Below are positions 9,299 through 29,079 of a stretch of DNA of 64,000 nt, piece by piece. The DNA is from Nitratireductor mangrovi. Its GTDB lineage: Bacteria; Pseudomonadota; Alphaproteobacteria; Rhizobiales; Rhizobiaceae. Position 1 is the first letter of the stretch. Each line of letters begins with the position of its first letter. The stretch lies in NCBI RefSeq assembly GCF_007922615.2, contig NZ_CP042301.2:620001-684000 (forward strand). The letters are read 5' to 3'. The notes beneath the pieces were generated by a model that saw only the letters and a program-made list of their open reading frames with translations, made no database searches and was not told where the DNA came from. A program made the position numbers and the translations under genes.

Positions 9299-10537
9299 CT
9301 ATTCGGCCGCCGCCAGGGCAGGGCGCTCCACAGCAGCCTCGCGGATCGGCCAGTGCACGATCGCCGCGAAGATACCAAGCGCCACACCCAGCCACCAGAC
9401 CGCGTCGTAGGACCCGTAGATGTCGTAGAGATAGCCGCCGAGCCAGACGCCCAGGAAGGAGCCGATCTGGTGTGACAGGAAGACGATGCCGCCCAGCATG
9501 CCGAGATGGCTGGTGCCGAACATGATCGCCACCAAGGCGTTGGTCGGCGGCACGGTCGACAGCCACAGCAGCCCCATGATGCCGGCGAAGACGATGACGG
9601 TGGCTGGCGTCTGAGGCAGAAGCAGGAACGCCGTTACCAGCACCGACCGGCCGATATAGATCCAGGCCAGGAAGATCGGCTTCGAATAACGCTGGCCGAT
9701 GAAGCCCGAGGCGAGCGAACCGATAATGTTGAAGAAGCCGATCAGCGCCAGTGCGATCACCGCGTAACGGGCCTCGATGCCGATATCGGCGACATAGGCC
9801 GGAAAATGCGCGGTGATGAAGGCGACCTGGAAGCCGCAGACGAAGAAGCCTGAAACCAGCAGCAGGTAGCTGTGGTGGCCGAGGGCCTCGCGCAGCGCCT
9901 GGCCGACGCTCTGTTCGATCTCGGTCTGGCTGACCGAGCCGCTCCTGGAGTTGCCGCGCAGCGGGATGGCCAGCACCGGGATGGCAAGCATCATGAAGCT
10001 CATCACGATCAGCGAATCGTACCAGCCATAGGTGTCGATCAGCCCCTGGCTCAGCGGCGCGAAGAAGAACATGCCGGCCGAACCGGCCGCCGTGCCGATG
10101 CCGAAGGCGAGGCTGCGGTTTTCCGGCGCGACGTTGCGGGCAAACGCCGCGAGCACGATGCCGAACGATCCCGCCGCCACGCCGAGGCCGACCAGCAGGC
10201 CGCCGCCGACATGCAGCATCGTCACGCTGTCGGCGTTCGCCATCAGGTAGAGGCCCGTCGCATACATGACGCCCGAGAGCGCCAGCACGCGCCAGGTGCC
10301 GAACTTGTCGGCGATGGCGCCGAAGACCGGCGTGCCCAGGCCCCAGGCGAGGTTCTGGATCGCCATGGCGAGGCCGAAGGTGGTGCGGTCCCAGCCTTTC
10401 TCTGCCAGCATCGGCAACTGGAAAAAGCCCATCGCGGAGCGCGGACCGAAGGTCAGCGCCGCTATGAGACAGCCGCAGATGATGATCAGCCACGGAAGCG
10501 TGGACCTGCTCTGCGCGGTGGCCGAAATGCTCGCCAT
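9299..10537 (-). CDS. MFS transporter
   Basis: About 412 residues with 12 hydrophobic helices. The MFS loop 2-3 motif appears as GAIADKFGTWRVLALSG. The overall layout resembles oxalate/formate or monocarboxylate MFS carriers. The ATG at 10537 (MASISAT) has GGAG nine bases upstream. A GTG ten codons earlier (10567) has no visible ribosome site. It ends 97 bases upstream of the PhoX-like gene and lies in the same direction. The substrate is unknown. Confidence 0.88.
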   Translation of the reverse strand: MASISATAQSRSTLPWLIIICGCLIAALTFGPRSAMGFFQLPMLAEKGWDRTTFGLAMAIQNLAWGLGTPVFGAIADKFGTWRVLALSGVMYATGLYLMANADSVTMLHVGGGLLVGLGVAAGSFGIVLAAFARNVAPENRSLAFGIGTAAGSAGMFFFAPLSQGLIDTYGWYDSLIVMSFMMLAIPVLAIPLRGNSRSGSVSQTEIEQSVGQALREALGHHSYLLLVSGFFVCGFQVAFITAHFPAYVADIGIEARYAVIALALIGFFNIIGSLASGFIGQRYSKPIFLAWIYIGRSVLVTAFLLLPQTPATVIVFAGIMGLLWLSTVPPTNALVAIMFGTSHLGMLGGIVFLSHQIGSFLGVWLGGYLYDIYGSYDAVWWLGVALGIFAAIVHWPIREAAVERPALAAAE

Positions 10538-10688
10538 GTCGAAGGACTCCGATTTGGAGGCCGACACTAGCGGTTTCGTTGATTCATTCCAGTGAATTGG
10601 ACGCGCTGGATCAATCAGTTTTTTTGATCTGACGCAGCAGCGGAACGCTCTCGCGCCCCGCCGCCCGGTTTTCGTGCGTGGCGGCGTC

Positions 10689-11558
10689 TCAGGCGTTCTG
10701 CGCCTGCGGCTGGCCGATCAGATGCACATCGCGCTGCGGGAACGGGATCGAAATGCCCCTGGCGTCGAAGGCGAGCTTCGCCGCCTTGGTGAGGTCGAGC
10801 TTGGTCTGGAACCAGTCCGGCGTCTTGGTCCAGTAGCGCACCGTCACCGCCACCGCGCTGTCGCCAAGCTCGCCGACGAACGTCGTCGGCGCCGGCTCGG
10901 CAAGCACCCGGTCGTCACCGTCGATCAGGCCGGCAAGCGTCGTCTGCGCGAGGTCGATGTCGTCGTCATAGCCGATCCCGATGCTGATGTCGGCGCGGCG
11001 CACCGCATTGCGGGAATAGTTGGTGACTGGCGAGTTCCAGAGTTCACTGTTGGGAGCCAGCACGAACAGGCCGTCGATCGACTTGAGCTCGGTCGCAAAC
11101 AGGCCGATCTCGACGATGGTGCCGGAAACGCTGCCGGCATCGACATATTCGCCGACCCGGAACGGCCGCAGGACCAGGAGCATGATGCCGGCGGCGATGT
11201 TTTGTAGCGTGCCCTGCAGCGCCAGGCCGATCGCGAGGCCGGCGGCGCCGAGGGCGGCCAGGATGCTGGCGGTCTGGACGCCGAACTGGGCCAGAACCGC
11301 GACGATGCTGATGATCAGCACGCCGTAGCGGGCGACCTTGGAAAAGAAACGCTTGAGCGTCTCGTCGAAACCGCGGACGCGGCCAAGACCGCGATAGGAG
11401 GCGCGTTCGACGACGCCTGCCGCGACGAAGCCGGCGATCAGGAGGATGATCGCACCCAGGATCGAGAAGGAATATTCGACGGCGAGCGCGCCCGCCTGCT
11501 GCATTCCTCCGGAGACCGCCGCCATCAGCCCCGACATGTTCGTTTCGATTTTTTCCAT
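10689..11558 (-). CDS. MscS family mechanosensitive channel
   Basis: A 289-residue small-conductance mechanosensitive channel. Three N-terminal hydrophobic helices lead to the pore-lining TM3, with GAAGLAIGLALQGTLQNIAAG, the alternating Gly/Ala pattern of MscS. The beta domain with VGTIVEIG-type sequence (SGTIVEIGLFATELKSIDG) and the C-terminal alpha/beta part follow. The start at 11558 has AGGAGA seven bases upstream. In-frame codons further up to 11663 are outside the family. The channel would release solutes on osmotic downshock. Confidence 0.93.
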   Translation of the reverse strand: MEKIETNMSGLMAAVSGGMQQAGALAVEYSFSILGAIILLIAGFVAAGVVERASYRGLGRVRGFDETLKRFFSKVARYGVLIISIVAVLAQFGVQTASILAALGAAGLAIGLALQGTLQNIAAGIMLLVLRPFRVGEYVDAGSVSGTIVEIGLFATELKSIDGLFVLAPNSELWNSPVTNYSRNAVRRADISIGIGYDDDIDLAQTTLAGLIDGDDRVLAEPAPTTFVGELGDSAVAVTVRYWTKTPDWFQTKLDLTKAAKLAFDARGISIPFPQRDVHLIGQPQAQNA

Positions 11559-11818
11559 GTTCTCCTGCCTGAACTCCAATGTCGCCCCTTGGGCTGTTCG
11601 ATTCCTATTAGAAAGGATCGGCCGGGGCGATGAAAGCCGCGTACCGGCCGTCAGCCTTAACATGCGGCGGAGTGCGGATAGCGGAGGGTGACGCGCAGGC
11701 AGCGTTCACGGCCGTCGCCACAATTCCGTCTCAATTCCGGCGCGTTGGCAATTTTCAGCTTGGGCTCCATGATGCCCGGTGCAGGCGCTCCCTGATCGAG
11801 GGGGCCAAAGGGCCGATC

Positions 11819-12010
11819 ATGGGATGTGAAGTCCGCATGCCATCATCCATCCGACAGGCGGAACCGCGCGACATCGATGCGCTCGTGGCGATCGAGAACG
11901 CCGTCTTTTCGACTGACCGCATCTCGCGCCGCTCGTTCCGGCAACTGATCGAAAGCGACAGTGCGAAGCGGTCGACGCTGATTCCCCAATTCTCGCGCAG
12001 GCCAGACTAA
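11819..12010 (+). pseudogene. Truncated GNAT acetyltransferase (N-terminal stump)
   Basis: The first 49 codons (IRQAEPRDIDALVAIENAVF, then SRRSFRQLIESDSA) are a GNAT N-terminus with host-like GC-rich codons. Similarity stops at about 11965, and the reading frame runs out at 12010 through unrelated, AT-richer sequence. The acetyl-CoA-binding core is absent. The stump aligns with the start of the complete GNAT at 13227 (VRKAEYRDVESLLVIEKLCF). It therefore looks like the left remnant of a resident gene cut by the insertion that carries 12049-14266. The start may be 11819 or 11837. Confidence 0.7.
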
Positions 12011-12048
12011 TATAGGAAATATCGAACTAAGGCGCGCGGGAGGAACAC

Positions 12049-13227
12049 GTGCTCGAAAGATCGGACACAACCACGAAAATCGTTTGTGTAGTTCCGCTCA
12101 TGTTTGGCTCTCGACCTAGGCTCCGCGACGATGTCGCCGGAACGGCGTCGGGATGGGAGCGCTCGAGTTGGCATAGCTGGTTCCCCGAACAGCTGCGTAA
12201 CTCGTTTCCGCGTACGACAATCTTTACAAACATAATTCAGTTATCACCGATATCGGAACTGGATCGCCATTTAGACATGGCGGATTTCTCCAGTTGGCTT
12301 ATCTTCTTTGACGACCGCTTGGGCGCGGCGGTTTTTTGTTTTGATACTTCAATTGGCGGGCTTTCGAGCGCCGAACTATCTGAAATTTATGGAAATTTGT
12401 GTACGATGCAGGAGCGGAGCGTTGAATCTGCTATTCTGTCTCTGCTCCATCATGACGACCAGAAAGCTCGCGCTAGATTAGCACTTACATGGAGCTTTTC
12501 TATCAACATAATAAAAATTGCTGATAAGATCGAGATGGATGCTGAGTCGATGCGGCAGTTTGTGACGATTTGCGGAGGCAGCGACCTAGGAGGACATCAT
12601 CAATTCGATTCCGAAGAAGTGCTTCATCTCGTCGGTGCGACTGGTTCTCTTGCAATTGTAATAAAGGATAGCCCGAAAAAGAAGAATTGGCAGCGCATTA
12701 TTGGACTATGGACGGCATTTTATTCGTACTATGCTGCATCAATCAATGACTACTCTCGGCTGGCGCGCGAGAACGCTAATGCGCCGAAAAAGCATACACG
12801 TCGTCAGCTTCTGGAGAGCATAAGATATCATGATGAGAGTTATCGATACATAACGAGCAGAATAAGTCTTTTCGATCCACTCAGTATATGTACAAGATCT
12901 TTCGATAGCCAGATATACGAAAATTGCTGGAAGACACTGGATGTCGAGTCTGATTCTGTGAAGCTGGAGCGTATGTCGAATTTTTTCCTGGAGAGCGCCA
13001 GAGGAGCCCAAGCCGAACTTACTCGCCGTTACGAAAGGGTCGTGGAGCTTGTCCTGTTCTTATTGGCTTTCACGCAAGTGCTGCCAATATTTGAGTGGCT
13101 TATCGGATGGGCAGCAAATCTAATGGGTATGAACACATCGATTGATGGTACGAAGTTGGCAGCCTTAGCATTTTCTATAAGCTTGTTTATTCTTGTTTAC
13201 ATTTATGCATACAAAAGGAGCAACTGA
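12049..13227 (+). CDS. Unknown 392-residue protein with two C-terminal membrane helices, possibly CorA-like
   Basis: GTG start with a strong GGGAGGA site five bases upstream. The first 330 residues are soluble, mixed alpha/beta then helical. Two hydrophobic helices follow at about 333-356 and 367-388, and the chain ends in a short basic tail (YKRSN). The tripeptide GMN at 360-362 sits between the helices, as in CorA magnesium channels, which also have a long cytoplasmic N-terminus and two C-terminal TMs. The rest is not recognisable, so CorA membership is a guess from architecture. Base composition is far more AT-rich than the neighbours. The stop overlaps the next start (TGATG), so it is probably coupled to the GNAT. 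Confidence 0.75.
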   Translation: MLERSDTTTKIVCVVPLMFGSRPRLRDDVAGTASGWERSSWHSWFPEQLRNSFPRTTIFTNIIQLSPISELDRHLDMADFSSWLIFFDDRLGAAVFCFDTSIGGLSSAELSEIYGNLCTMQERSVESAILSLLHHDDQKARARLALTWSFSINIIKIADKIEMDAESMRQFVTICGGSDLGGHHQFDSEEVLHLVGATGSLAIVIKDSPKKKNWQRIIGLWTAFYSYYAASINDYSRLARENANAPKKHTRRQLLESIRYHDESYRYITSRISLFDPLSICTRSFDSQIYENCWKTLDVESDSVKLERMSNFFLESARGAQAELTRRYERVVELVLFLLAFTQVLPIFEWLIGWAANLMGMNTSIDGTKLAALAFSISLFILVYIYAYKRSN

Positions 13228-13682
13228 TGAGCAATGTGCGGAAGGCTGAGTACCGAGACGTAGAAAGTCTTCTTGTCATCGAGAAGTTATGCTTTAATCA
13301 GGCATATTACTCGCGAATGACGCCACGGCAGTTCTATAGACATTTATCCAGTCCGAACGCTTTGCTTCTCGTCGTTGAAGATGACAGCGGTACGGTGCAA
13401 GGATACGCTCTCGGGTTCCTTCACGGAAAACGGAAGGCGCTCAGGTTCTACTCATTGGCCGTTGCACCCGATGCGCAGCGCGGCGAATACGGAAAGCAGC
13501 TTTTTGGTGCAATTGAACAGCGGGCTCAAGAAATGGGACTTGGGGTGCAATGTGAAGTACGCGAAGACAATGAAAAACTAATAAATCGGTACACGAAACT
13601 TGGGTATAGAAAATATAAGACAGTAAGAGATTATTATCCAGACGGCGCAGCATGCATAAAGATGGTGAAAGAGTTTCTCTAG
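13227..13682 (+). CDS. GNAT family N-acetyltransferase (RimI-like)
   Basis: A 151-residue complete GNAT domain. The acetyl-CoA loop is LAVAPDAQRGEYGKQLF (about residues 76-92), and the C-terminal LINRYTKLGYRK holds the usual xGF/Y-type ending. It is AT-rich and overlaps the preceding ORF by one base. Its N-terminus matches the stump at 11819. GNAT domains of this kind are known next to, or fused with, C39-like peptidases beside RimK-like ATP-grasp genes, as seen here. Its acceptor is probably a peptide or protein amine, but this is inference. Its TAG stop shares a CTAG palindrome with the convergent peptidase gene. Confidence 0.85.
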   Translation: MSNVRKAEYRDVESLLVIEKLCFNQAYYSRMTPRQFYRHLSSPNALLLVVEDDSGTVQGYALGFLHGKRKALRFYSLAVAPDAQRGEYGKQLFGAIEQRAQEMGLGVQCEVREDNEKLINRYTKLGYRKYKTVRDYYPDGAACIKMVKEFL

Positions 13683-14266
13683 AAAATTATATCTACTATG
13701 TATTTTTCGTATGCGGATAGCGTACTATGTAAACCGTTGTGCAGGAAGCTCTCGAAAAAACGTAGGTCGATTTTTGTTTCATATTGACCTGACAGCGGAT
13801 CGTATATTGCCATGTCTGCGCCCGGCTTGAAGGTAATCCAGTGGTATTCGTTTGACATAGAATAAGCGCGCATACTGCATAATAAGAGAGCAGGAGTGTC
13901 GGGCAAAAATTGTTTAGCTGATTTCATTTCATTTATGGTTATCAGTCGACCTAGTGCGTCAGCAAAGGCAAGGTTATCATTCTCAACTTGGCGTATCACG
14001 GTTTTCTGCACTTCACTACGAACAGTGCGCGCGAAACTGAAGTCCGACTTGGTGCGAATGAGTTTGAGCTTCTGATTGTGCTTATCGGCAGCTCTCAGCA
14101 GACCAGCGCCGTCGCAGCCAGCTGGTCCCTGGCCCATGAAAACGGTGTTTGCTGTGCGCCACAAATCGATCTGATTGCCAAGGTCATTGGCTATGATAGA
14201 CCCTTTCCACGAGAGAAGTGTGATCAACGCGGCCGGACCGCACAGAAAGGGTAGCGCCTGCGACAT
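13679..14266 (-). CDS. C39-like (DUF3335-type) papain-fold peptidase
   Basis: A 195-residue protein beginning MSQALPFLCGPAAL, the catalytic-Cys signature of C39-like cysteine peptidases, with candidate nucleophile Cys9 and Gln3 for the oxyanion hole. His142 (EYHWITFK) and Asp156 (IYDPLSG) complete a plausible triad. LWRTANTVFMGQGPAGCD matches the conserved middle of the DUF3335 group. The ATG has GAGGA six bases upstream. The gene is AT-rich and convergent with the GNAT gene. Its 5' end lies 33 bases from the divergent ATP-grasp gene. There is no signal peptide, so it should act in the cytoplasm. The reversed orientation relative to RimK is unusual for this cassette. Confidence 0.8.
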   Translation of the reverse strand: MSQALPFLCGPAALITLLSWKGSIIANDLGNQIDLWRTANTVFMGQGPAGCDGAGLLRAADKHNQKLKLIRTKSDFSFARTVRSEVQKTVIRQVENDNLAFADALGRLITINEMKSAKQFLPDTPALLLCSMRAYSMSNEYHWITFKPGADMAIYDPLSGQYETKIDLRFFESFLHNGLHSTLSAYEKYIVDIIF

Positions 14267-14299
14267 GACCGTCCTCGTTGAACTGGTGGATTAGCAGCG

Positions 14300-15766
14300 A
14301 TGGCTTCGTGGGTTATCCTTGTAGGCCGGATCAGCGACGTTGACCACTCGGCTACTCCGCACAAGATCATCACCAACCGCGACTACCTCGCCCATCCGGC
14401 GCTGTTTCGCGGCCAGCGCCCCAACGTCATCAACCTTTCCAACAATTACGGCTACCAGAGCAGGGGCTACTACGCCTCGCTGCTCGCCTCCTCGCGCGGC
14501 CACCGGGTCATCCCTACCGTGGAAACGATGATCGATCTTTCCGAGCGTAAGCTTTACGAAAACGCACTGCCGGAGCTTGAACAGGCGCTGAACCGCTGCC
14601 GCAAGGAGCTTGGCGGCGAAATCCCGTCGCGCCTGACCGTCTTTTTCGGCATCGCGCCGAGCAAGGCGTCCGACCGCTTCGCACGGCTCCTGTTCGACTG
14701 GTTCCGGGCCCCGGCGCTGGAGGTCGCCATACGCGACGAGAAAGGCTGGGCGTCGATCCGCAAGATCGGTTTCTTGCCACTCGCCCGCATGAGCGAAGCC
14801 GAGAAGGAGCGCTTCGTCGCCTGCCTCGGCACCTATACCAGCCGCGAATGGCGCGATTCGCGCACCCGCACCCAGGCCCGCTACAGCTTCGCGACCCTGG
14901 TCGATCCCAACGAGGAACTGCCGCCCTCGGCGATTAGCTCGCTGCGCCACTGGGCGCGGGTGGCCGAGAAGATGGGCGTCGAGGTCGAGCCGATCACGAA
15001 GAAGGACCTTGCCCGGCTGGCCAACTACGACGCTCTCTTCATCCGCGAGACGACCGCGATCTCCAACCATACTTACCGCTTCGCACGCCGCGCCCAGCAG
15101 GAAGGCATGCCGGTCATCGACGATCCGCTGTCGATGATCCGCTGCACCAACAAGGTCTATCTCAACGAGCTGATGACCCTGAACAAGGTGCCGGTGCCGC
15201 CGACGGTGATGATCGCCGGTCCCGCCGACCTTGAGATCGCCGCCCAGACGCTGGGCTTTCCGCTGGTGCTCAAAATCCCGGATTCCTCGTTCTCGCGCGG
15301 CGTCAAGAAGGCCAGTTCGCCCGCCGAACTGAAGGCGCTGGCGACGCAATGGCTCGCCGATTCGGATCTCCTGATCGCGCAGAAGTTCCTGCCGACCGAA
15401 TATGACTGGCGCATCGGCGTTCTGGGCGGCGAGCCGCTGTTTTCGGTGCACTACCTGATGGCGAAGAAGCACTGGCAGATCGTCAACCACGAACGCGGCG
15501 GCAAGCCGGTGGAGGGCGGCTTCAAGTCGTTCACGCTCGCCGGCACGCCGCAGCATGTCATCGATGTCGCCGTGCGCGCCGCCCGCTGCATCGGCGACGG
15601 GCTCTACGGCGTCGACCTCAAGGAGACGGCCGAGGGCGTCTACGTCATCGAGGTCAACGACAACCCCAATCTCGACCATGGCTGCGAGGACGCCGGCGAG
15701 AAGGACGTGGTGTGGCAGCGCCTGACGCAATGGTTCATCGACCGGCTCGAGCGCCAGGGGCGGTAG
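14300..15766 (+). CDS. RimK-like ATP-grasp ligase with RLAN N-terminal domain
   Basis: A 488-residue protein. The N-terminal half (about 1-200, NLSNNYGYQSRGYYASLLASS) fits the RLAN domain found in front of some RimK-like ligases. The C-terminal half is an ATP-grasp domain with the nucleotide-binding loop KIPDSSFSRGVKKA, DWRIGVLGGEPLF, and the metal-binding EVNDNPNLDHGCEDAG near the end. Relatives of RimK form amide bonds between amino acids and peptide C-termini or side chains. The codons are GC-rich, like the chromosome and unlike the island beside it, so this looks resident. The ribosome site before the ATG is weak. The substrate is unknown; association with GNAT and C39-like genes points to peptide modification. 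Confidence 0.9.
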   Translation: MASWVILVGRISDVDHSATPHKIITNRDYLAHPALFRGQRPNVINLSNNYGYQSRGYYASLLASSRGHRVIPTVETMIDLSERKLYENALPELEQALNRCRKELGGEIPSRLTVFFGIAPSKASDRFARLLFDWFRAPALEVAIRDEKGWASIRKIGFLPLARMSEAEKERFVACLGTYTSREWRDSRTRTQARYSFATLVDPNEELPPSAISSLRHWARVAEKMGVEVEPITKKDLARLANYDALFIRETTAISNHTYRFARRAQQEGMPVIDDPLSMIRCTNKVYLNELMTLNKVPVPPTVMIAGPADLEIAAQTLGFPLVLKIPDSSFSRGVKKASSPAELKALATQWLADSDLLIAQKFLPTEYDWRIGVLGGEPLFSVHYLMAKKHWQIVNHERGGKPVEGGFKSFTLAGTPQHVIDVAVRAARCIGDGLYGVDLKETAEGVYVIEVNDNPNLDHGCEDAGEKDVVWQRLTQWFIDRLERQGR

Positions 15767-15874
15767 CCGGTCTGAAGGCCGGGCCGGCGTTTCGTGGCGC
15801 CAGCCCGGCAAGCCGGCCTAGTCCGGATCGGGGCGAACGATCGCCGTCGTGGCGACCGGCTGAAAGTCTTCGCT

Positions 15875-16099
15875 TTAGGCGCCGATCCTGCGGCCATGTT
15901 CGCGGATCGCGTCGGGATCGCGGGCCTCATAGATGCACACCGATCCGACGCGGCCGTCGTCCTCCTTCACCGCATAGGAGCGGATCCAGCGCACCCGGTC
16001 GGTCATTTCTTCGCCGACCCGCGCCGACTCCGCGGCGGCAGCCTCCATTTCCGTTTCGTTCGCCCACATGCCGCGACGGCGGATGACATAAAGGTCCAT
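15875..16099 (-). CDS. DUF4242 small protein
   Basis: A 74-residue protein, MDLYVIRRRGMW to the C-terminus, matching the DUF4242 (SCO4226-like) family of small ferredoxin-fold proteins. One member has been reported to bind nickel. GAGGAGA precedes the ATG. It is divergent from the GlxA-type regulator at 16259, with 159 bases between starts, so that regulator may control it. In-frame sequence further upstream to 16504 runs antisense into the regulator and was discarded. Confidence 0.75.
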   Translation of the reverse strand: MDLYVIRRRGMWANETEMEAAAAESARVGEEMTDRVRWIRSYAVKEDDGRVGSVCIYEARDPDAIREHGRRIGA

Positions 16100-16258
16100 T
16101 TCGATTCTCCTCGGTTGCGGCCCTTGTGACCATGAAAGGAAGAATGGCCCTGTCGTACGCTGGCCTGAAGTGGACGATCCCGACATTGAACGGTGGCAAA
16201 TCTGCCGATCTGCCTTCGGGGTCTGGAAATTTCGGCTCGCTGCCCGATAATCGGGACC

Positions 16259-17272
16259 ATGGTTGAGACAAGCCGCAAGCCTGTGCTCGACGTTGCGATC
16301 CTGCTTGCCAACGACGGCTACGCGTCGACCGCGGTCGGGCCGATCGAGGTCTTTGCCGCCGCCGGCAAGATGTGGAACGAGATGAGCGGCCGCCCGGTCC
16401 GGCCACGCTTCCGGGTGACCATGGTCTCGGTGGATGGCGCCCCGATCGAAAGCGCCTACGGGCTGAAGATACAGCCGGATGCAAGCATCCACGACGTTAG
16501 CCATGCCGATGTCGTGTTCGTGTCGGCATCCGGCCCGACGCCGTCACAATGGATCGACCGCCATCGCGGCGTGTTGCCGTGGCTTCTCGACTGGCGCCGG
16601 CGCGGCGCGATGCTGGCCGGCGTTTGTTCCGGCGTTGCCTTTCTCGCCGAGGCCGGGCTGCTCGATGGCCGTCGCGCCACAACCCACTGGGGGGTGGCGG
16701 AGGATTTCCGGCACCGCTACCCGGATGTCGACTGGCGCACGGACCTCCTGATTACTGAAGACCAGGGTCTTTTCTGCGGCGGTGGCGTCAACGCATCGAC
16801 CGATCTGAGCCTTTACCTGGTCGAGCGGTTATGCGGACGCGAGGTCGCGATCCAATGCTCCAAGGCGCTCATTCTCGACATGCCGCGCCTTCACCAGTCC
16901 GGCTATGCATTTCTCCCTGTCGCGCGAAGTCACGGCGATCCACGGGTGAGGGACGTCGAGGAATATCTGCATGCCAATTTCCGTGACTGTCCGCCCACCG
17001 AAGATGTGGCGCGCCAAGTCGGAATGAGCCCGAGGACGCTTGTCCGCCGCTTCAAGGCGGCCACCGGACACCTTCCGGGCGAATACCTGCAGATGATCCG
17101 TGTCGCCGCCGCCAGGCAGTTGCTCGAGGACGGCGAGCCTTCGGTCCAGCAGGCTGGTCTCAAGGTTGGTTACGAAGACACCGCCCATTTCCGGCGCGTC
17201 TTCAAGCGCCACAGCGGACTGACGCCATCCGCCTACCGCGAGCGTTTTCGGCTGCGGCAGTCCAGCGGATGA
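16259..17272 (+). CDS. GlxA family transcriptional regulator (DJ-1/PfpI + AraC HTH)
   Basis: A 337-residue protein. Residues about 8-190 form a DJ-1/PfpI-like amidotransferase fold with the nucleophile-elbow cysteine in GVCSGVAFLAEAG, probably used for ligand binding. Residues about 225-330 hold two AraC-type helix-turn-helix motifs (TEDVARQVGMSPRTLVRRFK and AGLKVGYEDTAHFRRVFKRH). The start at 16259 was chosen because the 22 codons upstream fall outside the domain. Regulators of this type often control adjacent genes; here the divergent DUF4242 gene is the nearest candidate. Confidence 0.9.
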   Translation: MVETSRKPVLDVAILLANDGYASTAVGPIEVFAAAGKMWNEMSGRPVRPRFRVTMVSVDGAPIESAYGLKIQPDASIHDVSHADVVFVSASGPTPSQWIDRHRGVLPWLLDWRRRGAMLAGVCSGVAFLAEAGLLDGRRATTHWGVAEDFRHRYPDVDWRTDLLITEDQGLFCGGGVNASTDLSLYLVERLCGREVAIQCSKALILDMPRLHQSGYAFLPVARSHGDPRVRDVEEYLHANFRDCPPTEDVARQVGMSPRTLVRRFKAATGHLPGEYLQMIRVAAARQLLEDGEPSVQQAGLKVGYEDTAHFRRVFKRHSGLTPSAYRERFRLRQSSG

Positions 17273-17317
17273 GGCCCCTGCGGCCCGCTGCGATCCGATC
17301 ATGTCGGCCTGCGTGCG

Positions 17318-18298
17318 CTAGAGGTCGCTCCCCGGCCGGGCATCGGGGTGGCCTTCGGTTGCCGGTTCCCGCGCGGGCGGCGGCAATGCCGGCCCACTGC
17401 CGCGAAGCGGACGTGTCTGCCCGAGCAATAGCGGGCGGTGCTTGACGATCGCCTGCGCCATGAAGTCGAAGAAGACCCGCACCTTCGGCCGCTTGTGAAG
17501 GTCTGGATGGGTGAGGATCCACAGTCCGCCGGTCAGGCCCGGTTGCGGGTCGAGCACCCGGACCAGGTCTTCCTCCGGGTCCCCGATCTGGCAGGGCAGC
17601 AGTGCCAGCCCGAAACCCGCCTTTGCAGCCTGCAGCAGCCCCAGCACGCTGTTGCTGCGGGTGGTGATCTCGCAACGCGGCGCGACTTCCCGCAGCCAGC
17701 GGGCGGCGGTGATGTCTTCGATGACGCCTTCGAAGCCGATGACACGGTGAGCGTTGAGGTCGTCGGGCGTGGCTGGAGCGCCGTGGCGTTCGACATAGTC
17801 GCCGGTCGCGTAGACGGCCCAGGTCTGGTCGCTCAGTTTTCGACCGACCAGGGTGCTGCTCCCCGGCGGACCTGCCCTGAGGGCGACATCCGCCTCGCCG
17901 GCGCCGAGGTCGGCGTATCTTTCCTCGATCATCAGGCTGACCTTGATGTCCGGATGATGCCGCTCGAATTCGCGGATCAGCCGCGGCACCAGCCCCAGGG
18001 CGACGGCCGAAACCCGCAGCGAGCCGGTGAGCGTGCTGTCGAGCGCGGCCGCGCGTCGTGTCAGTTCCAGAACGGCGGTTTCGACCGAACCGGCGTTGGC
18101 GACCAGCGCCTCGCCTTCGGGGGTCAGGCGGTAGCCCTGCCGCTGCTTCTCGAACAACCTCAGACCAAGCCCGGCCTCGAGTGCGGCGAGACGGCGCACC
18201 ACCGTGGACTGGTTGACGCCAAGCTGCCGGCCGGCCGCCGCCGTGCTGCCGGAGCGCGCGATGGCGAGGAAATAGCGCAAATCGTTCCAGTCGATCAT
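17318..18298 (-). CDS. LysR family transcriptional regulator
   Basis: A 326-residue LysR regulator. The N-terminal winged HTH is intact (DLRYFLAIARSGSTAAAGRQL, then VNQSTVVRRLAALEAGLGLRLFEK), followed by a periplasmic-binding-like effector domain. The C-terminal 30 residues are Pro/Arg-rich and extend beyond the usual family end. It is divergent from the GNAT gene at 18428, with 129 bases between starts, so the pair may share a control region. The inducer is unknown. Confidence 0.92.
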   Translation of the reverse strand: MIDWNDLRYFLAIARSGSTAAAGRQLGVNQSTVVRRLAALEAGLGLRLFEKQRQGYRLTPEGEALVANAGSVETAVLELTRRAAALDSTLTGSLRVSAVALGLVPRLIREFERHHPDIKVSLMIEERYADLGAGEADVALRAGPPGSSTLVGRKLSDQTWAVYATGDYVERHGAPATPDDLNAHRVIGFEGVIEDITAARWLREVAPRCEITTRSNSVLGLLQAAKAGFGLALLPCQIGDPEEDLVRVLDPQPGLTGGLWILTHPDLHKRPKVRVFFDFMAQAIVKHRPLLLGQTRPLRGSGPALPPPAREPATEGHPDARPGSDL

Positions 18299-18427
18299 GG
18301 CGCGGGATTATGCATTTTTGCCGCGACAAGCGCCACAATCGCTGATGGCCCGGTGCCACCCTCGGGCGTATCAGTCGCGCCCGCCGCCAGAGACGGGCGG
18401 CATGGACCGATTGGACGAGAAACGATC

Positions 18428-19291
18428 ATGACGACACAGATACGAGCAGCCGTTCCGGCGGATGCCGAAGCTTGCGGCCGCATCATGTACGAGGCGTTCG
18501 CGGCTGTCGCCCACAGGCACGGCTTCGAGCCCGATTTTCCCTCGGCGGAGGCGGCCATCGGCCTGGCAGCCGCACTCACTCGATCCGGCACCACCTATGG
18601 CGTGGTGGCCGAGCGTGACGGCCGGATCATCGGCTCCAACTTCCTCAAGGAGAGCGATTCCGTGCGCGGCGTCGGCCCGATCACGGTCGCCCCCGGCTTC
18701 CAGGGCGACGGCACCGGGCGACGCCTGATGCAGGCGGTGATCGAGCGCGGCAACGGAGCCGACAGCGTGCGCCTGCTGCAGGACGGCTTCAACATGGGAT
18801 CGCTCGGCCTTTATGCCTCACTGGGCTTTGCCGTGCGCGAGCCGGTGGTGGTGATGGCCGGCACGCCCGACGGCAAGGCCAAGGGCGACGTCGAGGTCCG
18901 GCCGCTGCTGGAGGAGGACATCGATGCCTGCGACGCGCTCTGCAAGCGCGTGCATGGCTTTTCGCGTCGCTCCGAACTGGTCGATGCCGTGCGCGATCTC
19001 GCGCCGATGGTCGCCGTCAGGGAAGGGCGTGTCGTCGCCTACGCTACCGAGCCCTTGCGCTGGATCATCAGCCATGCCGTCGCCGCGACGACCGATGACA
19101 TGGAGGAGTTGCTTCTCGGCGCGGCACGGCTTGCCGGCGCTCCGCTGTCGTTCCTGCTGCCCACCCGCCAGGAAAAGCTCTTCCGCCGCTGCCTGGCGCT
19201 CGGTCTGCGTGCGACCAAGCCGATGACGCTTATGACGCGCGGACGATATGACACCCCGGCGGGCGTCTACATGCCCTCGGTCTTCTATTGA
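18428..19291 (+). CDS. Tandem-domain GNAT family acetyltransferase
   Basis: A 287-residue protein. The first half is a canonical GNAT with PITVAPGFQGDGTGRRLMQAV (acetyl-CoA loop, about residues 83-103) and LLQDGFNMGSLGLYASLGF. The second half (about 155-285, starting VEVRPLLEEDIDACDALCKR) looks like a second, degenerate GNAT domain without a clear CoA loop. The ATG at 18428 was chosen because the upstream open frame is antisense to the LysR gene. It is divergent from the LysR regulator, which may control it. The substrate is unknown. Confidence 0.85.
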   Translation: MTTQIRAAVPADAEACGRIMYEAFAAVAHRHGFEPDFPSAEAAIGLAAALTRSGTTYGVVAERDGRIIGSNFLKESDSVRGVGPITVAPGFQGDGTGRRLMQAVIERGNGADSVRLLQDGFNMGSLGLYASLGFAVREPVVVMAGTPDGKAKGDVEVRPLLEEDIDACDALCKRVHGFSRRSELVDAVRDLAPMVAVREGRVVAYATEPLRWIISHAVAATTDDMEELLLGAARLAGAPLSFLLPTRQEKLFRRCLALGLRATKPMTLMTRGRYDTPAGVYMPSVFY

Positions 19292-19347
19292 GCCGAAAAC
19301 GGGCGGTCCGGCGCGGCCGGACGACATCCTCCCAGAGAAAGGAAATC

Positions 19348-19884
19348 ATGATGGATGACATGGCAACAGGCTGTGACGTGGCGCCCGGCGCATCTGCCGG
19401 TACGGTCGCGAGCACGGGCGACGTGGGCCAGACCGCCGCGAGCGACGGTTTGCATCGTGGCCGCTGCTTTTGCGGCACCGTGGAGATCGAGGCAAAGGGC
19501 ACGCCGCTGGAAATGGGGTATTGCCATTGCAGTTCCTGCCGCTCCTTCACCGGAGCGCCCCTCAATGCCTTCACGCTGTGGAAGGCGGAGCAGGTGCGGG
19601 TCGTGCGGGGCGAAGAACATCTGGGCCACTTCAACAAGACCGGCATGAGCGACCGGCAATTCTGCACGAAGTGCGGCGGCAACGTGATGACAGGCCATCC
19701 CGGCCTCGGTTTCACGGACGTCTTTGCTGCCATCCTGCCGAGCGTGAAGTTCGAGCCCTCGGTGCATCTCAACTATGCCGACACCGTGCTCCCGATCCAT
19801 GACGGCCTGCCGAAACTGCGTGATTTCCCGGCGCATGCCGGCGGGTCCGGCGAACTGCTGCCGGAAGATCCGCAGCTGTTCTGA
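19348..19884 (+). CDS. GFA-type zinc-binding protein (glutathione-dependent formaldehyde-activating family)
   Basis: A 178-residue protein with the three Cys clusters of the GFA fold: GRCFCGTVEIEA, YCHCSSCRSFTGAP and CTKCGGNV. The family includes the S-hydroxymethylglutathione-forming enzyme of Paracoccus, but most members have no known substrate. About 50 Ala/Gly/Thr-rich residues precede the fold. AAAGGA lies about seven bases before the ATG at 19348, and a second ATG follows directly. It trails the GNAT gene by 56 bases. Two more GFA genes occur in tandem at 29517-30474. Confidence 0.85.
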   Translation: MMDDMATGCDVAPGASAGTVASTGDVGQTAASDGLHRGRCFCGTVEIEAKGTPLEMGYCHCSSCRSFTGAPLNAFTLWKAEQVRVVRGEEHLGHFNKTGMSDRQFCTKCGGNVMTGHPGLGFTDVFAAILPSVKFEPSVHLNYADTVLPIHDGLPKLRDFPAHAGGSGELLPEDPQLF

Positions 19885-19971
19885 CCTGGTACGGACGGGA
19901 AAGGCGCGTTTCTCGTCGTGTGGCTCGGCGGCGCCCGGATCGCAGACGCGGTCCGCCCGGCAAGAAATCCG

Positions 19972-20029
19972 GGAACGTTTTCGCAACGGCGGCATCCAAT
20001 GGACCGAAATCCCCGCGTTGTGCGGGGAT
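19972..20029 (+). promoter_or_regulatory. Candidate ECF-type promoter and leader hairpin of the sigma-factor operon
   Basis: GGAACG at 19972-19977 and CATCCAA at 19993-19999 are separated as in ECF sigma promoters (16 bases between GGAAC and CATCC), and they resemble the GAACC/CGACCAA pairs at 46502 and 46957. Downstream, an 8-bp perfect hairpin (ATCCCCGC/GCGGGGAT, 20009-20029) sits in the presumed leader, 21 bases before the first gene. The hypothesis is autoregulation by the ECF factor encoded at 21009. It rests on pattern only. Confidence 0.45.
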
Positions 20030-20050
20030 CGTCCACGGGAGATTGCCGTC

Positions 20051-20476
20051 ATGAAGACCCTATCCGCCTCGCTCGCCTTCCTGCTCGCCGGATCGTTCGC
20101 CGCGCTCGCGAACGACGTCCCGGCCGAGATCGCCAAGTCGCCTCCCGGCGGTGCCTACCAGGCTGTCTCCGGGCTGGTGAAGCTGCCCGACTTCATTCCG
20201 GGCCTCGGCCAGCTTTTCGTCGACCCGTCGACCCTGCCGGCCGGGCCGTTCCTCGCCTATGACCGCGACGGGGAACTGGTGAGCACCATCTACATGCTGC
20301 CGGTCGACGACCTCGCCGACCCGGACAAGCGCTTCGACGACCTCCTTTCGCCGGCCGGCAGCGTCGATCACATCGACGTCTATCACAATGCCGGCCATCC
20401 GGGCGTGGAGATGCCACACGCGCATATCGTGCTGTGGCACGTTCCGGCCGCGGAAGAAGCGCGGGTGGCGCAGTGA
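20051..20476 (+). CDS. Secreted protein of the ECF operon (possibly TTHB210/DUF5602-like)
   Basis: A 141-residue protein with a classic signal peptide (MKTLSASLAFLLAGSFAALA). The mature part contains PLAGP-like LPAGPFLAYDRDGELVSTIYMLP and a His-rich end, DVYHNAGHPGVEMPHAHIVLWHV, which could bind a metal. From memory this resembles TTHB210/DUF5602-type proteins, which have been linked to ECF sigma regulons, but the match is uncertain. It begins an operon with a cupredoxin and an ECF sigma factor. Its TGA overlaps the next gene's GTG start. Confidence 0.75.
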   Translation: MKTLSASLAFLLAGSFAALANDVPAEIAKSPPGGAYQAVSGLVKLPDFIPGLGQLFVDPSTLPAGPFLAYDRDGELVSTIYMLPVDDLADPDKRFDDLLSPAGSVDHIDVYHNAGHPGVEMPHAHIVLWHVPAAEEARVAQ

Positions 20477-21000
20477 TCGTCACGCGGCGCACTCTGCTCG
20501 GGCTCGGCGGCGGTTTCGCCGCCGGCCTGCTCCTCCGCCCGGCCTTCGGCGCAGGCAGAACAGCCGAAATCGCAATGGTTGGCAACAGCGACGGCTCGCG
20601 CGTCGGCTTCGATCCTGTCGGGCTGCATGTCGCCCCCGGTGCCAGGGTACGCTGGGTCAATCGCGATGCCGGCAACAGCCACACGGCGACCGCCTATCAT
20701 CCGGACCTTCTGGACCGGCCAAGGCGCATCCCCGACGGCGCCGAGCCCTGGGACTCGGACTATCTGCTGCCGGACGAGGTCTTCGCGGTGACACTGACCG
20801 TCCCCGGCGTCTATGATTTCTACTGTGTGCCGCACGAGCATGCCGGCATGGTCGGGCGGATCGTCGTCGGCGAGCCGCCGCGCGGCTGGCAGGACTATGC
20901 CGGCGGTGGAGACACGGAGGGGGCGCTGCCGCACGCTGCCCTGGACAGGTTTCCGTCCGTCGAGGCGATCATGCAATCCGGCATCGTGCGCGAGGGTTAG
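20473..21000 (+). CDS. Tat-exported cupredoxin (plastocyanin/azurin-like)
   Basis: A 175-residue protein starting at GTG (GTGA overlap with the previous stop). The N-terminus VTRRTLLGLGGG is a twin-arginine signal. The fold is a type 1 copper cupredoxin with likely ligands His70 (NSHTATAYH), Cys118, His121 and Met126 in CVPHEHAGMVG, the plastocyanin spacing C-x2-H-x4-M. The last 40 residues (after IVVGEPP) are an extra tail not in classic plastocyanins. Being co-transcribed with an ECF sigma factor suggests a periplasmic redox or copper stress response. Confidence 0.85.
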   Translation: MIVTRRTLLGLGGGFAAGLLLRPAFGAGRTAEIAMVGNSDGSRVGFDPVGLHVAPGARVRWVNRDAGNSHTATAYHPDLLDRPRRIPDGAEPWDSDYLLPDEVFAVTLTVPGVYDFYCVPHEHAGMVGRIVVGEPPRGWQDYAGGGDTEGALPHAALDRFPSVEAIMQSGIVREG

Positions 21001-21008
21001 AAAACGTC

Positions 21009-21704
21009 ATGCAGGCACTGGCTAGACACATGGGCGCCGACGCCGTCCGGCTGGACGAGACGGCCCTGGTCGATCTCGCCCGCGGTGGCGACGAGGCCGC
21101 CGTCCGCATCCTCGTCCAGCGCTACAACCGTCGGCTCTACCGGGTGGCGCGGGCCGTGCTGCGCGACGACGCCGAGGCCGAGGATGTGGTGCAGGAGGCG
21201 CATGTCAGCGCTTTCTCGGCCCTCGACCGCTTTCATGGCCGGTCGAGCTTCGCGACCTGGATTACCCGCATCGCCATCAACGCCGCGCTGGCGCGCCGGC
21301 GGCGGCGAAGGCCGGCGCTGCCTCTGGAAGCGGCGGAGAGCGAAAACGGCGGGGCCGCGCGTGTGATCGCCTTCCCAGCCGTCCAACCGAACCCGGAGCA
21401 GGCCATGGGCCGGTCACAGGTACGCGAACTCTTGCAGCAGGTCGTCGAGGAGTTGCCCGATGCGTTCCGCATCGTCTTCATACTGCGCGACATCGAGGGC
21501 ATGAGCGTGGAGGAGACCGCCGGTCACCTCGACATCAAGCCGGCGACCGTCAGGACCAGACTGCATCGTGCGCGCGGCATGATGCGCGCCGGCCTTGCCC
21601 GCCATGCCGCCGAAAGCCTGCCGGACCTGTTTCCCTTCGCCGGCAGCCGCTGCGACAGGATGGCCGGGCGGGTAGTGCGGTCGCTGAAGCAGGCGAGGGC
21701 GTAG
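21009..21704 (+). CDS. ECF RNA polymerase sigma factor
   Basis: A 231-residue group 4 sigma factor. Region 2 spans about residues 25-95 (LVQRYNRRLYRVARAVLRDD, DVVQEAHVSAFSALDRFHGRSSFATWITRIAINAA). Region 4 spans about 135-190 (LPDAFRIVFILRDIEGMSVEETAG, then IKPATVRTRLHRARGMMR). A C-terminal extension of about 35 residues follows. No anti-sigma gene is visible next to it, so control may be autoregulatory or through the cupredoxin-side genes. It lies eight bases after the cupredoxin gene and converges on the HD gene. Confidence 0.9.
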   Translation: MQALARHMGADAVRLDETALVDLARGGDEAAVRILVQRYNRRLYRVARAVLRDDAEAEDVVQEAHVSAFSALDRFHGRSSFATWITRIAINAALARRRRRRPALPLEAAESENGGAARVIAFPAVQPNPEQAMGRSQVRELLQQVVEELPDAFRIVFILRDIEGMSVEETAGHLDIKPATVRTRLHRARGMMRAGLARHAAESLPDLFPFAGSRCDRMAGRVVRSLKQARA

Positions 21705-21711
21705 CTCGCCG

Positions 21712-22317
21712 TCAGGTGTGCAGCGCCTCGATCGCATCGAAGCGGGCAAGAAACGCCTTCTGCACGGTCTTGGCAGGCAACGGCCTGAGGTCGAGGGCGT
21801 CGGCGGAGATGCCGCGCGGCCGTCCGAAGAAGCGGTTCGCCTCCTCGACCGCGAAGCCCGCGAGTTCGGTTGCCTCGTACCAGGCGGCGACCTGGTCGGC
21901 GCGCTTGATCGAGGTCTTCAGCCTCTCCGCCCGCTCCGGGAGCGAGAAGCGGCGGTGGACCGCCGCCTGCAGGCGTTGCTCCACGGCCTTGTAGCCGCCG
22001 CCGACCACCGCCTTGAACGGCGAGATCATGTCGCCGATGACATATTCGGCCGCGTCGTGCAGCAGCGCCGCGAGCAGCGCGGTTGGCGCTGCGTTGGGAT
22101 GGCGCAGCCGGTAGATGTGCTCGACCAGCAGCGAGTGCTGCGCGACCGAGAAGGCGTGGTCGCCATGCGTCTGGCCGTTCCAGCGCGCCACGCGCGCCAG
22201 CCCGTGCGCGATGTCGGCAATCTCGATGTCGAGCGGCGAGGGGTCGAGCAGGTCGAGCCGGCGTCCCGACAGCATGCGCTGCCAGGCCCTCGGCGGCGCT
22301 CCGGCGCGGTCGGCCAT
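21712..22317 (-). CDS. HD-domain phosphohydrolase (YfbR-like)
   Basis: A 201-residue HD protein. The metal-binding H...HD...D pattern is visible in HGDHAFSVAQHSLLVEHI and ALLHDAAEYVIGD. The layout (IADIAHGLARVARWNGQTHGD) matches YfbR-like 5'-deoxynucleotidases or uncharacterised relatives. The ATG at 22317 overlaps the ygfZ stop (TGATG), so the two are coupled. A GTG one codon upstream is an alternative. The role is probably in nucleotide-pool housekeeping. Confidence 0.85.
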   Translation of the reverse strand: MADRAGAPPRAWQRMLSGRRLDLLDPSPLDIEIADIAHGLARVARWNGQTHGDHAFSVAQHSLLVEHIYRLRHPNAAPTALLAALLHDAAEYVIGDMISPFKAVVGGGYKAVEQRLQAAVHRRFSLPERAERLKTSIKRADQVAAWYEATELAGFAVEEANRFFGRPRGISADALDLRPLPAKTVQKAFLARFDAIEALHT

Positions 22318-23234
22318 CACGCTCCGGCCTCGCCGGCAGCAGCTTGGGGAAACCCGAAGCGGGCACCGGGCGGGATCGACGCGGTGACCGGTACGTCGCC
22401 GGCCAGCACCGGCTCGCCGGCGTCGATGGCTTCCTTCACGCGGTCGATGCGCAGGATTGCGAGTCCTGTTTTGCCTGCAACCGTTCCGAGTGTGCCGGCG
22501 GCGCGGCCGGCGGTCGTCACGGCCGTGCCGGGCGCGGGCAGGGCGGTCTCGCCCTTTACGATCAGCACGCGCCGGCGTGCGGTGCCGCGATGCTGCATGC
22601 GGCTGACCACCTCCTGGCCGACATAGCAGCCCTTCTTCAGCCCCAGCCCGCCATTCTGGTCGAGCAGCACGTCGTGCGGGAAGGCATCGCCGAGTTCGTA
22701 GTCGCTGCCGCTCTCGGCAACGCCATGGGCAACGCGCAACGCCGTCCAGGCCTCGATCGCCTCCGGTGGGATCCCGGCGGTGGCGCGGTCGCCGAAACTG
22801 CGCTGCACGGCCAGCGCCTCGGGGAAGCGGGTGTCGCGATAGCCGGTTGAATCGGGTTGTGAAGAAGCTGAATCGGTTTGCGAGGAACCTGACTCATTCT
22901 GCAAACTATCAGAATCATTCTGCCAGGAAACGCTCACAACGCTTTGTTCTCGCGTCGTAATGTCGGCCTTGGCGCGCAGCTTGTAGAGCCTCAGCCGGCG
23001 CCGGAAATCCTCCGCGATGTCGCTCCGGCACTCGATCAGGAAGCCGTCGGCGCCCTCGCGCACGATCATGAAGTCGAACAGGATCTTGCCTTGCGGGGTC
23101 AGCAGTGCGCCCGGTTTGGCCTCGCCCTGGCCGAGCGCGCCGAGGTCGGTGGTGAGGATATTCTGGAGCAGGTGCTCGGCATCGGGACCGGAAACGGAAA
23201 TGATGGCGCGGTCGGGCAGGTCGATCGAGGGCAT
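22317..23234 (-). CDS. ygfZ: YgfZ/GcvT-like folate-dependent Fe-S repair protein
   Basis: A 305-residue protein of the YgfZ (IbaG-linked GcvT-like) family, which supports Fe-S cluster enzymes in a folate-dependent way. The family signature is intact: KKGCYVGQEVVSRMQHRG, with the conserved cysteine. The N-terminal GcvT-like folate domain is present. An unusual Ser/Asp/Gln-rich insert at about residues 105-132 is encoded by four 21-bp tandem repeats (see the repeat entry). It is coupled to the downstream HD gene. Confidence 0.92.
   Translation of the reverse strand: MPSIDLPDRAIISVSGPDAEHLLQNILTTDLGALGQGEAKPGALLTPQGKILFDFMIVREGADGFLIECRSDIAEDFRRRLRLYKLRAKADITTREQSVVSVSWQNDSDSLQNESGSSQTDSASSQPDSTGYRDTRFPEALAVQRSFGDRATAGIPPEAIEAWTALRVAHGVAESGSDYELGDAFPHDVLLDQNGGLGLKKGCYVGQEVVSRMQHRGTARRRVLIVKGETALPAPGTAVTTAGRAAGTLGTVAGKTGLAILRIDRVKEAIDAGEPVLAGDVPVTASIPPGARFGFPQAAAGEAGA
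22839..22922 (-). repeat. Four 21-bp tandem repeats inside ygfZ
   Basis: Read on the minus strand, four consecutive 21-bp units begin with CAR and encode heptads QNDSDSL, QNESGSS, QTDSASS and QPDSTGY. The units are diverged but in register, and they are AT-richer than the gene. They keep the frame, so they add a flexible linker rather than break the protein. Confidence 0.8.
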
Positions 23235-23354
23235 GGTGAAACTGCGGTGTCGGTTGGGGTTCAGGCTCTACCTAAGCCTGCCGCAGCAGGGCGACAAGCC
23301 GCAACGCCATGATAGCGACGGTTTGCTGTCCCATGCTGACGCGGCAGCGACCGC

Positions 23355-27392: not shown

Positions 27393-28892
27393 ATGCCAGA
27401 GGCTTTTCGCGGACTTCGCCTCTACAACACGCTGACCCGGGCGAAGGAGGATTTTCTCCCGATCGACCCGGACAATGTGCGCATGTATGTCTGCGGGCCG
27501 ACGGTCTACGACTATGCCCATATCGGCAATGCGCGCCCGGTCATCGTCTTCGACGTGCTGTTCCGGCTGCTGCGCCATCTCTATGGCGAAGACCACGTCA
27601 CCTATGTGCGCAACATCACCGACGTCGAGGACAAGATCAACGACCGCGCCCGGCGCGACTTCCCCGACCTGCCGCTCAACGAGGCGATCCGAAACGTCAC
27701 CGAAAAGACCGCGCGCCAGTACCACGAGGACGTGAAGGCGCTCGGCTGCCTGGAGCCGACCTTCGAACCGCGGGCGACCGAGCACATCGACGGCATGGTG
27801 GCGATGATTCAGACGTTGTTGGATCGGGGCCATGCCTATGTCGCCCATGGTCAAGACGGACGCGAGGCTCTTTTCGACGTTCTTTCCATGCCGGAGTATG
27901 GACAGCTGTCACGCCGCCGCTTGGAAGACCAGCAAGCCGGTGCTCGGATCGAGGCCAAGGATCACAAGCGTAATCCCGGGGATTTTGTTCTTTGGAAGGA
28001 AAGCCACGATAACGAACCGGGATGGGATGCGACGTTTGAACTGTCAGATGACAACCGCGATGCGTTGCGACTGAATTCGAACACGCTTGGTATTCGCGGT
28101 CGACCTGGGTGGCACATCGAATGCTCGGTGATGAGCCAGCACCATCTGGGCAAAGTCTTCGACATCCATGGCGGCGGGCTCGACCTGATCTTCCCGCACC
28201 ACGAGAACGAGATCGCCCAGTCGCGCTGCGCCCACGGCACGGAGGTCATGGCCAATTACTGGATGCACAACGGCTTCCTGCAGGTCGAGGGCCGCAAGAT
28301 GTCGAAGTCGGAGGGCAATTTCGTCACCATCCACGATCTCCTGCACACCGAAAAGTTCGGCGGGCGAAAGTGGCCGGGCGAGGTGCTGCGGCTCGCCATG
28401 CTGATGACGCACTACCGCGAGCCGATCGACTTTTCGGTGCGGCGGCTGGAGGAGGCGGAGAAGAAGCTGATACGCTGGCTTAAGAGCGCATATCTCCGCG
28501 ACGAACCATCAGACGACTTGGTTTCTTCGTCCGTGATTTCCCACCTATTGGACGATCTAAGCTTCTGGCCAGCGATTAGCGATTTGGATCATCTGGCCAA
28601 CCCGGGAAATGCATCGGACGGAGTTTCGCACGCGAGCCTAAATGCCACATTGCGATTCCTCGGGCTGCTGCCTGCTTATGAGATCTTTACGCGGTGGTTG
28701 AATGAAGTCGACGACGATACCAAGCTGATTATCGACGCAAGAATAGAGGATCGCCTCGCCTTCATCCGCGAAAAAAACTGGGCCGAGGCCGACCGCATCC
28801 GCGACGAGTTGCTGGCGCAGGGCATCCAGCTCAAGGACGGCAAGGACCCCGAGACCGGCGAGCGCGTCACCACCTGGGAGGTGAAGCGGTGA
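27393..28892 (+). CDS. cysS: Cysteinyl-tRNA synthetase
   Basis: A 499-residue class I synthetase that charges tRNA-Cys. [18 protein letters not shown] holds the zinc ligand Cys and the HIGN ATP motif. WHIECSVM and HHENE complete the zinc site, and KMSKSEGN is the second ATP motif. GAAGGGGA precedes the ATG at 27393. The protein is longer than relatives I know (about 460), with an extra segment near [17 protein letters not shown]. Two internal blocks, about 27800-28130 and 28490-28750, use AT-richer codons than the rest. This suggests a mosaic gene built by recombination, though all motifs are intact. Confidence 0.95.
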
Positions 28893-28914
28893 GGGCAGGG
28901 CACGTTTTCAAAGA

Positions 28915-28970
28915 CACCCCCCTCTGTCGGCTGCGCCGACATCTCCCCCTCAAGGGGGGAGATTGGCAGC
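28915..28970 (+). repeat. Left arm of a rhizobial intergenic palindromic repeat
   Basis: CACCCCCCTCTGTCGGCTGC to GATTGGCAGC. It contains an internal palindrome (CTCCCCC/GGGGGAG). It is about 80-90 percent identical, as an inverted copy, to 29026-29075. Repeats of this CCCCCTCTG...CTCCCC...GGGGGAGAT type are scattered between genes in Mesorhizobium-like genomes. Confidence 0.75.
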
Positions 28971-29025
28971 TCCAGCGTTGGCGCCTCGGCGCTGGCGGTA
29001 GCGATTGCCTTGGCCGACAGCGACA

Positions 29026-29075: not shown

Positions 29076-29079
29076 CGCC

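Follow-up and report, generated by a model that had tools for sequence, protein, structure and literature searches.

How has an ATP-grasp ligase of the RimK family come to stand beside partner genes that do not resemble the DNA around them? The question is raised by one locus of Nitratireductor mangrovi, in a 64-kb stretch of contig NZ_CP042301.2 (hereafter the window, whose numbering is used throughout; its own genome is G000). There, a guanine-cytosine (GC)-rich gene with RLAN and RimK domains is separated from the remnant of a GNAT acetyltransferase gene by AT-rich genes for a membrane protein, a second GNAT and an inverted C39-like cysteine peptidase of the DUF3335 family. The block from 11959 to 14299 is probably a horizontally acquired three-gene module that replaced a resident GNAT-DUF3335 fusion beside a retained RLAN-RimK gene; it would provide the ligase with another enzyme for capping and with a peptidase under control of its own. 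Import is the likely origin of the block on several grounds: base composition, the GNAT stump, two genus mates that keep an uninserted allele, gene trees that conflict, a second genome with the same order, and a geometry of overlap and divergence that is conserved. The cassette itself, GNAT-DUF3335 with RLAN-RimK, was reportedly described by Iyer et al. in 2009, and it matters because RLAN occurs in 155 of the 394 family genomes surveyed.

The stump (11819..12010, plus strand) retains homology to resident GNATs up to about 11958 and then runs into a new tail and a stop codon. Beyond the left junction (11959..12048) lies the gene for TM392 (12049..13227, plus strand), for which no family was detected and for which hydropathy predicts a cytosolic domain and two C-terminal transmembrane (TM) segments. 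It is followed by the acetyltransferase GNAT' (13227..13682, plus strand; PF00583, 50 bits) and by C39' (13679..14266, minus strand; PF11814, 74.9 bits, with the cut-off at 25), a short stand-alone DUF3335 cysteine peptidase. A divergent gap (14267..14299), with the right junction near the RimK start, leads to the RLAN-RimK ligase (14300..15766, plus strand; RLAN PF14401, 138 bits; RimK PF08443, 35 bits). These five genes and their coordinates are as called in an earlier note made from the sequence alone. That note had also described an AT-rich island, with 11966-14266 as the interval to check, and composition bears this out. The three inserted genes have about 47% GC (0.466-0.477 by gene) and third-position GC (GC3) of 0.49 in TM392, 0.48 in GNAT' and 0.52 in C39', against 0.89 in the neighbouring MFS gene, 0.84 in the MscS gene and 0.87 in RimK; with an AraC-type gene included, the surrounding genes have a GC of 0.645-0.654 and a GC3 of 0.76-0.89. 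TM392, GNAT' and C39' have the lowest GC3 among 54 scored open reading frames of the window, a set selected by a rule biased to long, high-GC3 frames, and 11751-14500 contains the eight lowest-GC 1-kb steps of the window (250-base spacing).

The earlier note had looked to sister strains for an uninserted allele, and two genus mates, G001 and G002, possess one. A search for RimK over 61 genomes gave matches in 30, including the window's own and many of them weak; the 19 relatives with strong matches (G026 as two pieces) were read together with flanks of at most 10 kb on the upstream side and 4 kb on the downstream side. The order in G001 and G002 is MFS-MscS-[GNAT-DUF3335 fusion, 372 amino acids (aa)]-RimK, with the cassette genes on one strand. 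The resident left flank of the window consists of the same two genes, an MFS transporter (9299..10567, minus strand; PF07690), 88% identical to that beside the cassette in both genus mates, and an MscS-type mechanosensitive channel (10689..11663, minus strand; PF00924/PF21082), 81-83% identical. The stump, which by itself matched nothing in any library searched and is recognized through relatives only, is 70% and 67% identical over 43 aa to the near-N-terminal part of the fusion in G001 and G002, respectively. DNA homology of the window to these genomes ends at 11952-11958 and restarts at 14351; for five other native loci (L031, L034-L037) it restarts at 14309. Sliding identity along RimK showed no clear breakpoint. 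The start of RimK reads ILVGR in the window and in L080, the second locus with the module, as against ILTGR in ten native loci (L031-L040), with LVGR also present in L043; this is suggestive, and only that, of the first RimK codons having moved together with the module. Recombination probably took place through homology within the RimK start or close to it. Of the marks of an integrase-type genomic island, no tRNA was found in the window, no direct repeat at the junctions, and no integrase among the eight proteins that were given a domain scan. No RNA element reached the gathering threshold.

In the RimK tree (59 rows, N-terminal 271 columns), the window protein groups with G001 and G002 (support 97/98). 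The GNAT tree (59 rows) instead pairs GNAT' with its L080 counterpart (100/100), far from the genus. In the C39 tree (16 rows), 13 native domains are separated (100/99) from the peptidases of the window, L080 and a further genome, G573; support for joining the window and L080 within the latter group is only 91/66. The tree tool flagged an unusual letter composition for GNAT' and C39' of the window, as well as several long branches. On the evidence of these conflicting trees, RimK is resident and its partner genes are not.

L080 (JAHBYW010000001.1, Rhizobiaceae bacterium ACE_PRO29; the same contig as G692:C1) repeats the window's genes, order and orientation beside RLAN-RimK: TM392, GNAT', inverted C39' and RimK, at 41%, 57%, approximately 54-55% and 80% identity, respectively. 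It also carries the same MFS (80%). Because the order recurs, the block is better regarded as one coherent module than, as the earlier note had it, foreign alleles of two functions plus a new gene; the other half of that proposal, replacement of the resident GNAT and DUF3335 with RimK kept, agrees with the trees. L080 differs from the window in its normal GC (module GC3 0.84-0.90) and in its left flank, where a sigma/anti-sigma pair stands in place of MscS and stump; the 164 bp that separate the anti-sigma gene from TM392, and the DNA around them, showed no detectable GNAT stump. A relative of this kind, with the same order, normal GC and no stump, had been named in the earlier note as counting against its reading, and what it argues against is only the idea of a scar peculiar to this genome. 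G573 (locus L079), from another family, shares with the window a short inverted C39 that is tail to tail with a GNAT and divergent from RLAN-RimK; it differs in its native-type GNAT, its normal GC and the lack of any match to TM392. The geometry is correspondingly conserved. The TM392 stop overlaps the GNAT' start in the window (as TGATG) and in L080, the tail-to-tail overlap of GNAT and C39 is common to all three loci, and the gap between the divergent C39 and RimK genes measures 33 bp in the window, 34 bp in L080 and 94 bp in L079.

The two GNAT' proteins (57% identical) have diverged as far as native GNATs do where the RimK proteins are equally distant, a level that suits one shared history as well as it suits separate imports into the window and L080, although the left flanks of the two differ. 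Identity within the C39' pair is 54%, below the 74% of native C39 pairs (eight pairs only). A scan of genome contigs with a C39' profile returned a single locus, that of L080, and viral contigs contained no C39'. Plasmid matches to C39' came from eight records of Azospirillum and Tistrella, two of which were read and proved to be ordinary same-strand GNAT-DUF3335-RimK loci. Other short relatives of C39' (P0003, P0005 and P0006) belong to a Rhizobiaceae metagenome-assembled genome and to metagenomes, P0005 lying on seven contigs.

How unusual the arrangement is can be judged from the family, in which 117 of the 394 genomes have DUF3335. Positions were counted in the 150 RLAN-containing genomes that were listed. 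DUF3335 and RLAN lie within 3 kb of each other in 109, on the same strand with DUF3335 upstream in 107 and opposed in two (G000 and G692); 40 have RLAN without DUF3335, and in one (G884) the two are on different contigs. All 40 listed RLAN genomes without DUF3335 have a native-type GNAT as the next gene upstream of RimK, in the same orientation. The earlier note had stated that GNAT and C39 domains of relatives usually share one orientation and are often fused upstream of RimK; the two are fused in the native loci that were read. With the inverted module at 2 of 149 examined RLAN loci, the survey speaks against frequent exchange of this module; the 107 same-strand loci were scored by position, and swaps that keep the order escape the count. 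Of 53 family loci scanned, not counting the window, 46 had 4.4 kb or more of upstream DNA; in this set, which over-represents close relatives and loci lacking DUF3335, the upstream DNA included an MFS gene in 34 cases, a sigma/anti-sigma pair in 24 cases and MscS in 13. Sigma-factor/anti-sigma pairs upstream of the GNAT-RimK cassette or the module were seen in L080 and in several of L088-L119.

Might this part of the family instead have had the module first, with the fused allele of G001 and G002 as the newcomer, AT-richness as the product of relaxed mutation and the stump as an independent remnant? The native-like divergence of GNAT' between the window and L080 would suit such a history, as would the inverted C39 of another family, in G573. 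It is nevertheless improbable, for DUF3335 is on the RimK strand in 107 of 109 adjacent family pairs, the native GNAT is retained at every listed RLAN locus that lacks DUF3335, and GC3, which exceeds 0.84 in MFS, MscS and RimK, is only about 0.5 between the junctions. If, on the other hand, the resident fusion was broken by an illegitimate insertion, the imported genes would act independently of RimK. A left junction within a gene and the absence of a clear crossover signature are what such an event might leave, yet the module adjoins RLAN-RimK in both genomes that hold it, at 33 and 34 bp, and supplies homologues of exactly the functions that were lost; we regard this account as unlikely.

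Import of a module that would work with the resident ligase also has to be set against two views of what the cassette is for. The earlier note had raised conflict or specificity evolution, as in toxin or defence systems. In a conflict or defence cassette, TM392 would be a membrane effector, C39' an activating protease and allele exchange the trace of an arms race. This has fared poorly: PADLOC gave no hit for the four proteins tested, no TM392 relatives were found in plasmids, phages or viral contigs, the module is rare, and its neighbours are a transporter and a channel or a sigma/anti-sigma pair. We give it little credence, though GNAT alleles as such may have been exchanged repeatedly, swaps in native order being invisible to the count of 2 in 149. 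A cassette for an N-acetylated, osmolyte-like peptide, comparable to N-acetylglutaminylglutamine amide (NAGGN), whose product the import would have changed, is a possibility that we hold with some doubt. The NAGGN pathway uses a GNAT enzyme with an ATP-grasp part, an amidase and a peptidase, and MscS precedes RimK in 13 of 46 family loci. In the NAGGN operon, the gene for an asparagine synthase stands with those for a GNAT-family synthetase and for a glutamyl aminopeptidase (PMC8070244). Against this, MscS was not found in the other 33 loci, and TIGR03103, the NAGGN synthetase family, scores GNAT' at 21.8 bits where its cut-off is 569; for RimK, it is absent among the 25 best of 27 families. 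The upstream genes and the NAGGN precedent are hints, no more, of an envelope or osmotic role.

GNAT' finds its best solved-structure matches among N-terminal acetyltransferases, such as Naa20 and Ard1, and scores 57 bits against the RimI family TIGR01575, below the cut-off of 86.4. The canonical acetyl-CoA loop of such enzymes is Q/RxxGxG/A; at 13476-13493, GNAT' and its L080 homologue have in common an unusual loop, QRGExG. Papain- and C39-like peptidases are marked by Cys, His and Asp together with an oxyanion Gln, and in C39' residues Q3, C9, H142 and D156 are invariant in all eight aligned sequences. An AlphaFold2 (AF2) model of C39' (predicted local distance difference test, pLDDT, 82) aligned best with C39 peptidase domains and with Alr0975, a papain-like enzyme handling glutathione, at scores near background; Foldseek alone returned nothing at E <= 0.001 with this model. 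RLAN and RimK domains occur together in one protein, with GNAT and DUF3335 adjacent, and against the ribosomal protein S6 ligase family of NCBIfam, PRK10446, the ligase scores 32.3 bits, well short of the threshold of 331.

TM392 is the novel component. Its start, a GTG at 12049 with a GGAGG site, is favoured by alignment to its homologue; the database version, P0001, begins only at residue 77 and so lacks the 76 residues encoded at 12049-12276. The one homologue found is P0007 in L080 (41% over 385 aa). Hydropathy places two C-terminal hydrophobic segments in both members, with two extra weak peaks in the L080 protein near residues 68 and 81. TM392 has no Pfam match. Of 5.77 billion proteins searched, with the top approximately 8,000 candidates scored, a single-sequence query recovered only itself, missing P0007, and a two-row profile added P0007 alone. 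TM392 was found in one of 385 class genomes, the window's own, and in two of 394 family genomes. A scan of genome contigs by TM392 alone found nothing and is insensitive, since the collection includes the L080 record that it missed. Three PHROG matches (E 0.11-0.4) are at chance level, a search of solved structures with the TM392 profile gave only E values of 1 or above, and the AF2 model (pLDDT 44) is not usable. The mark of CorA channels is a GMN loop between two TM segments. TM392 was considered as such a channel and rejected: GMN is present in the window protein but not in that of L080, hhalign gave 4.1% with the two-row profile, and Pfam gave nothing.

Family membership suggests a scheme of ligase, cap and eraser. 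The RimK-like enzyme would ligate amino acids onto a peptide or small acceptor, the amino acid probably being glutamate because characterized RimK enzymes use it; GNAT' would acetylate the free N-terminus, and C39' would cleave or trim the product. TM392, presumably translationally coupled to GNAT', might hold the acetyltransferase at the membrane or sense the state of the envelope, although this role as anchor or sensor is a guess. TM392, GNAT' and RimK are co-directional with an opposite-strand gene, C39', among them, which is the layout of a noncontiguous operon. As only 33 bp separate C39' from RimK, transcription from TM392-GNAT' probably reaches RimK through the antisense of C39', and the ligase/cap and peptidase messages might then limit each other. 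No sigma-70-like site was found in the 33-bp gap. Promoter-like sites (five, against 2.3 +/- 1.5 in shuffles) and terminator-like sites (four, against 4.6 +/- 2.6) are weak evidence either way. More speculatively, and with less confidence than we place in the import, there may be a class of RLAN-RimK loci in which the operon of the ligase contains, in antisense, the gene of a peptidase that undoes what the ligase makes, production and removal thereby being mutually exclusive at the level of RNA. The trigger would be sensed by TM392, a membrane protein of no known family coupled to GNAT', and the class would spread between genomes as a plug-in for a ligase already in residence.

The cassette slot also varies on the right. 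Directly after RimK in G001 and G002 are two genes, one HD-type and one YgfZ-like. Their counterparts in the resident right flank of the window (21724..22305, minus strand, a 73% match to the G002 gene; and 22344..23255, minus strand, 62%) lie about 6 kb beyond RimK, and this displacement to 21724-23255 means that about 6 kb more of GC-rich DNA also differs in the window. That DNA, at 15800-21700, contains an AraC-type regulator (by Pfam) and unnamed genes. In a third genus mate, G003, there is no RLAN match and the order is MFS, MscS, a lipoprotein-like gene, and the HD and YgfZ-like genes; its locus (L127, 4022-8394) has no cassette, the lipoprotein-like gene between MscS and the HD gene encoding 279 aa. 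A second, milder GC dip occurs in the window at 27501-29250 (1-kb steps of 0.58-0.61, where the median is 0.66).

Set beside known systems, the locus is a known cassette in a new variant: its partner module is coherent, its peptidase is inverted in a conserved way and its membrane protein is new. The natural exchange of all genes except the ligase amounts to an experiment, since what native and swapped alleles make with one RimK would tell which component determines specificity; the locus also adds a conserved antisense peptidase arrangement and a family of membrane proteins of which just two are known. The native fusion cassette and the window have the same three domain types adjoining and the C39 catalytic residues kept; in the window, GNAT and peptidase are split, the peptidase is inverted, both come from other clades, and TM392 has been added. 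Frequent fusion of DUF3335 to GNAT has been noted (PMC10318531). Within the portions of the literature covered, RLAN and RimK are not named together, and the texts on the cassette do not give its substrate. C39 peptidases are tied to ATP-grasp loci of ribosomally synthesized and post-translationally modified peptides through ABC transporters (PMC8939145); no ABC transporter was seen at the window locus, as a graspetide reading would lead one to look for. For R2K-type ATP-grasp ligases, neighbouring GNATs have been proposed to cap the product (PMC4431377). RimB-RimK and RloA-RloC are also among the nearest known systems. RimK enzymes are alpha-L-glutamate ligases whose glutamylation is undone by the peptidase RimB, and rloC mutations rescue the loss of Rlo peptidases (both from PMC12239564). 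As at the window locus, an ATP-grasp protein is paired with a peptidase; the peptidases there are aspartic rather than cysteine enzymes, and the sections of PMC12239564 searched name no GNAT. The men genes of Staphylococcus aureus, a noncontiguous operon (PMC7154746), share with the gene layout of the window an opposite-strand gene between genes of one predicted operon.

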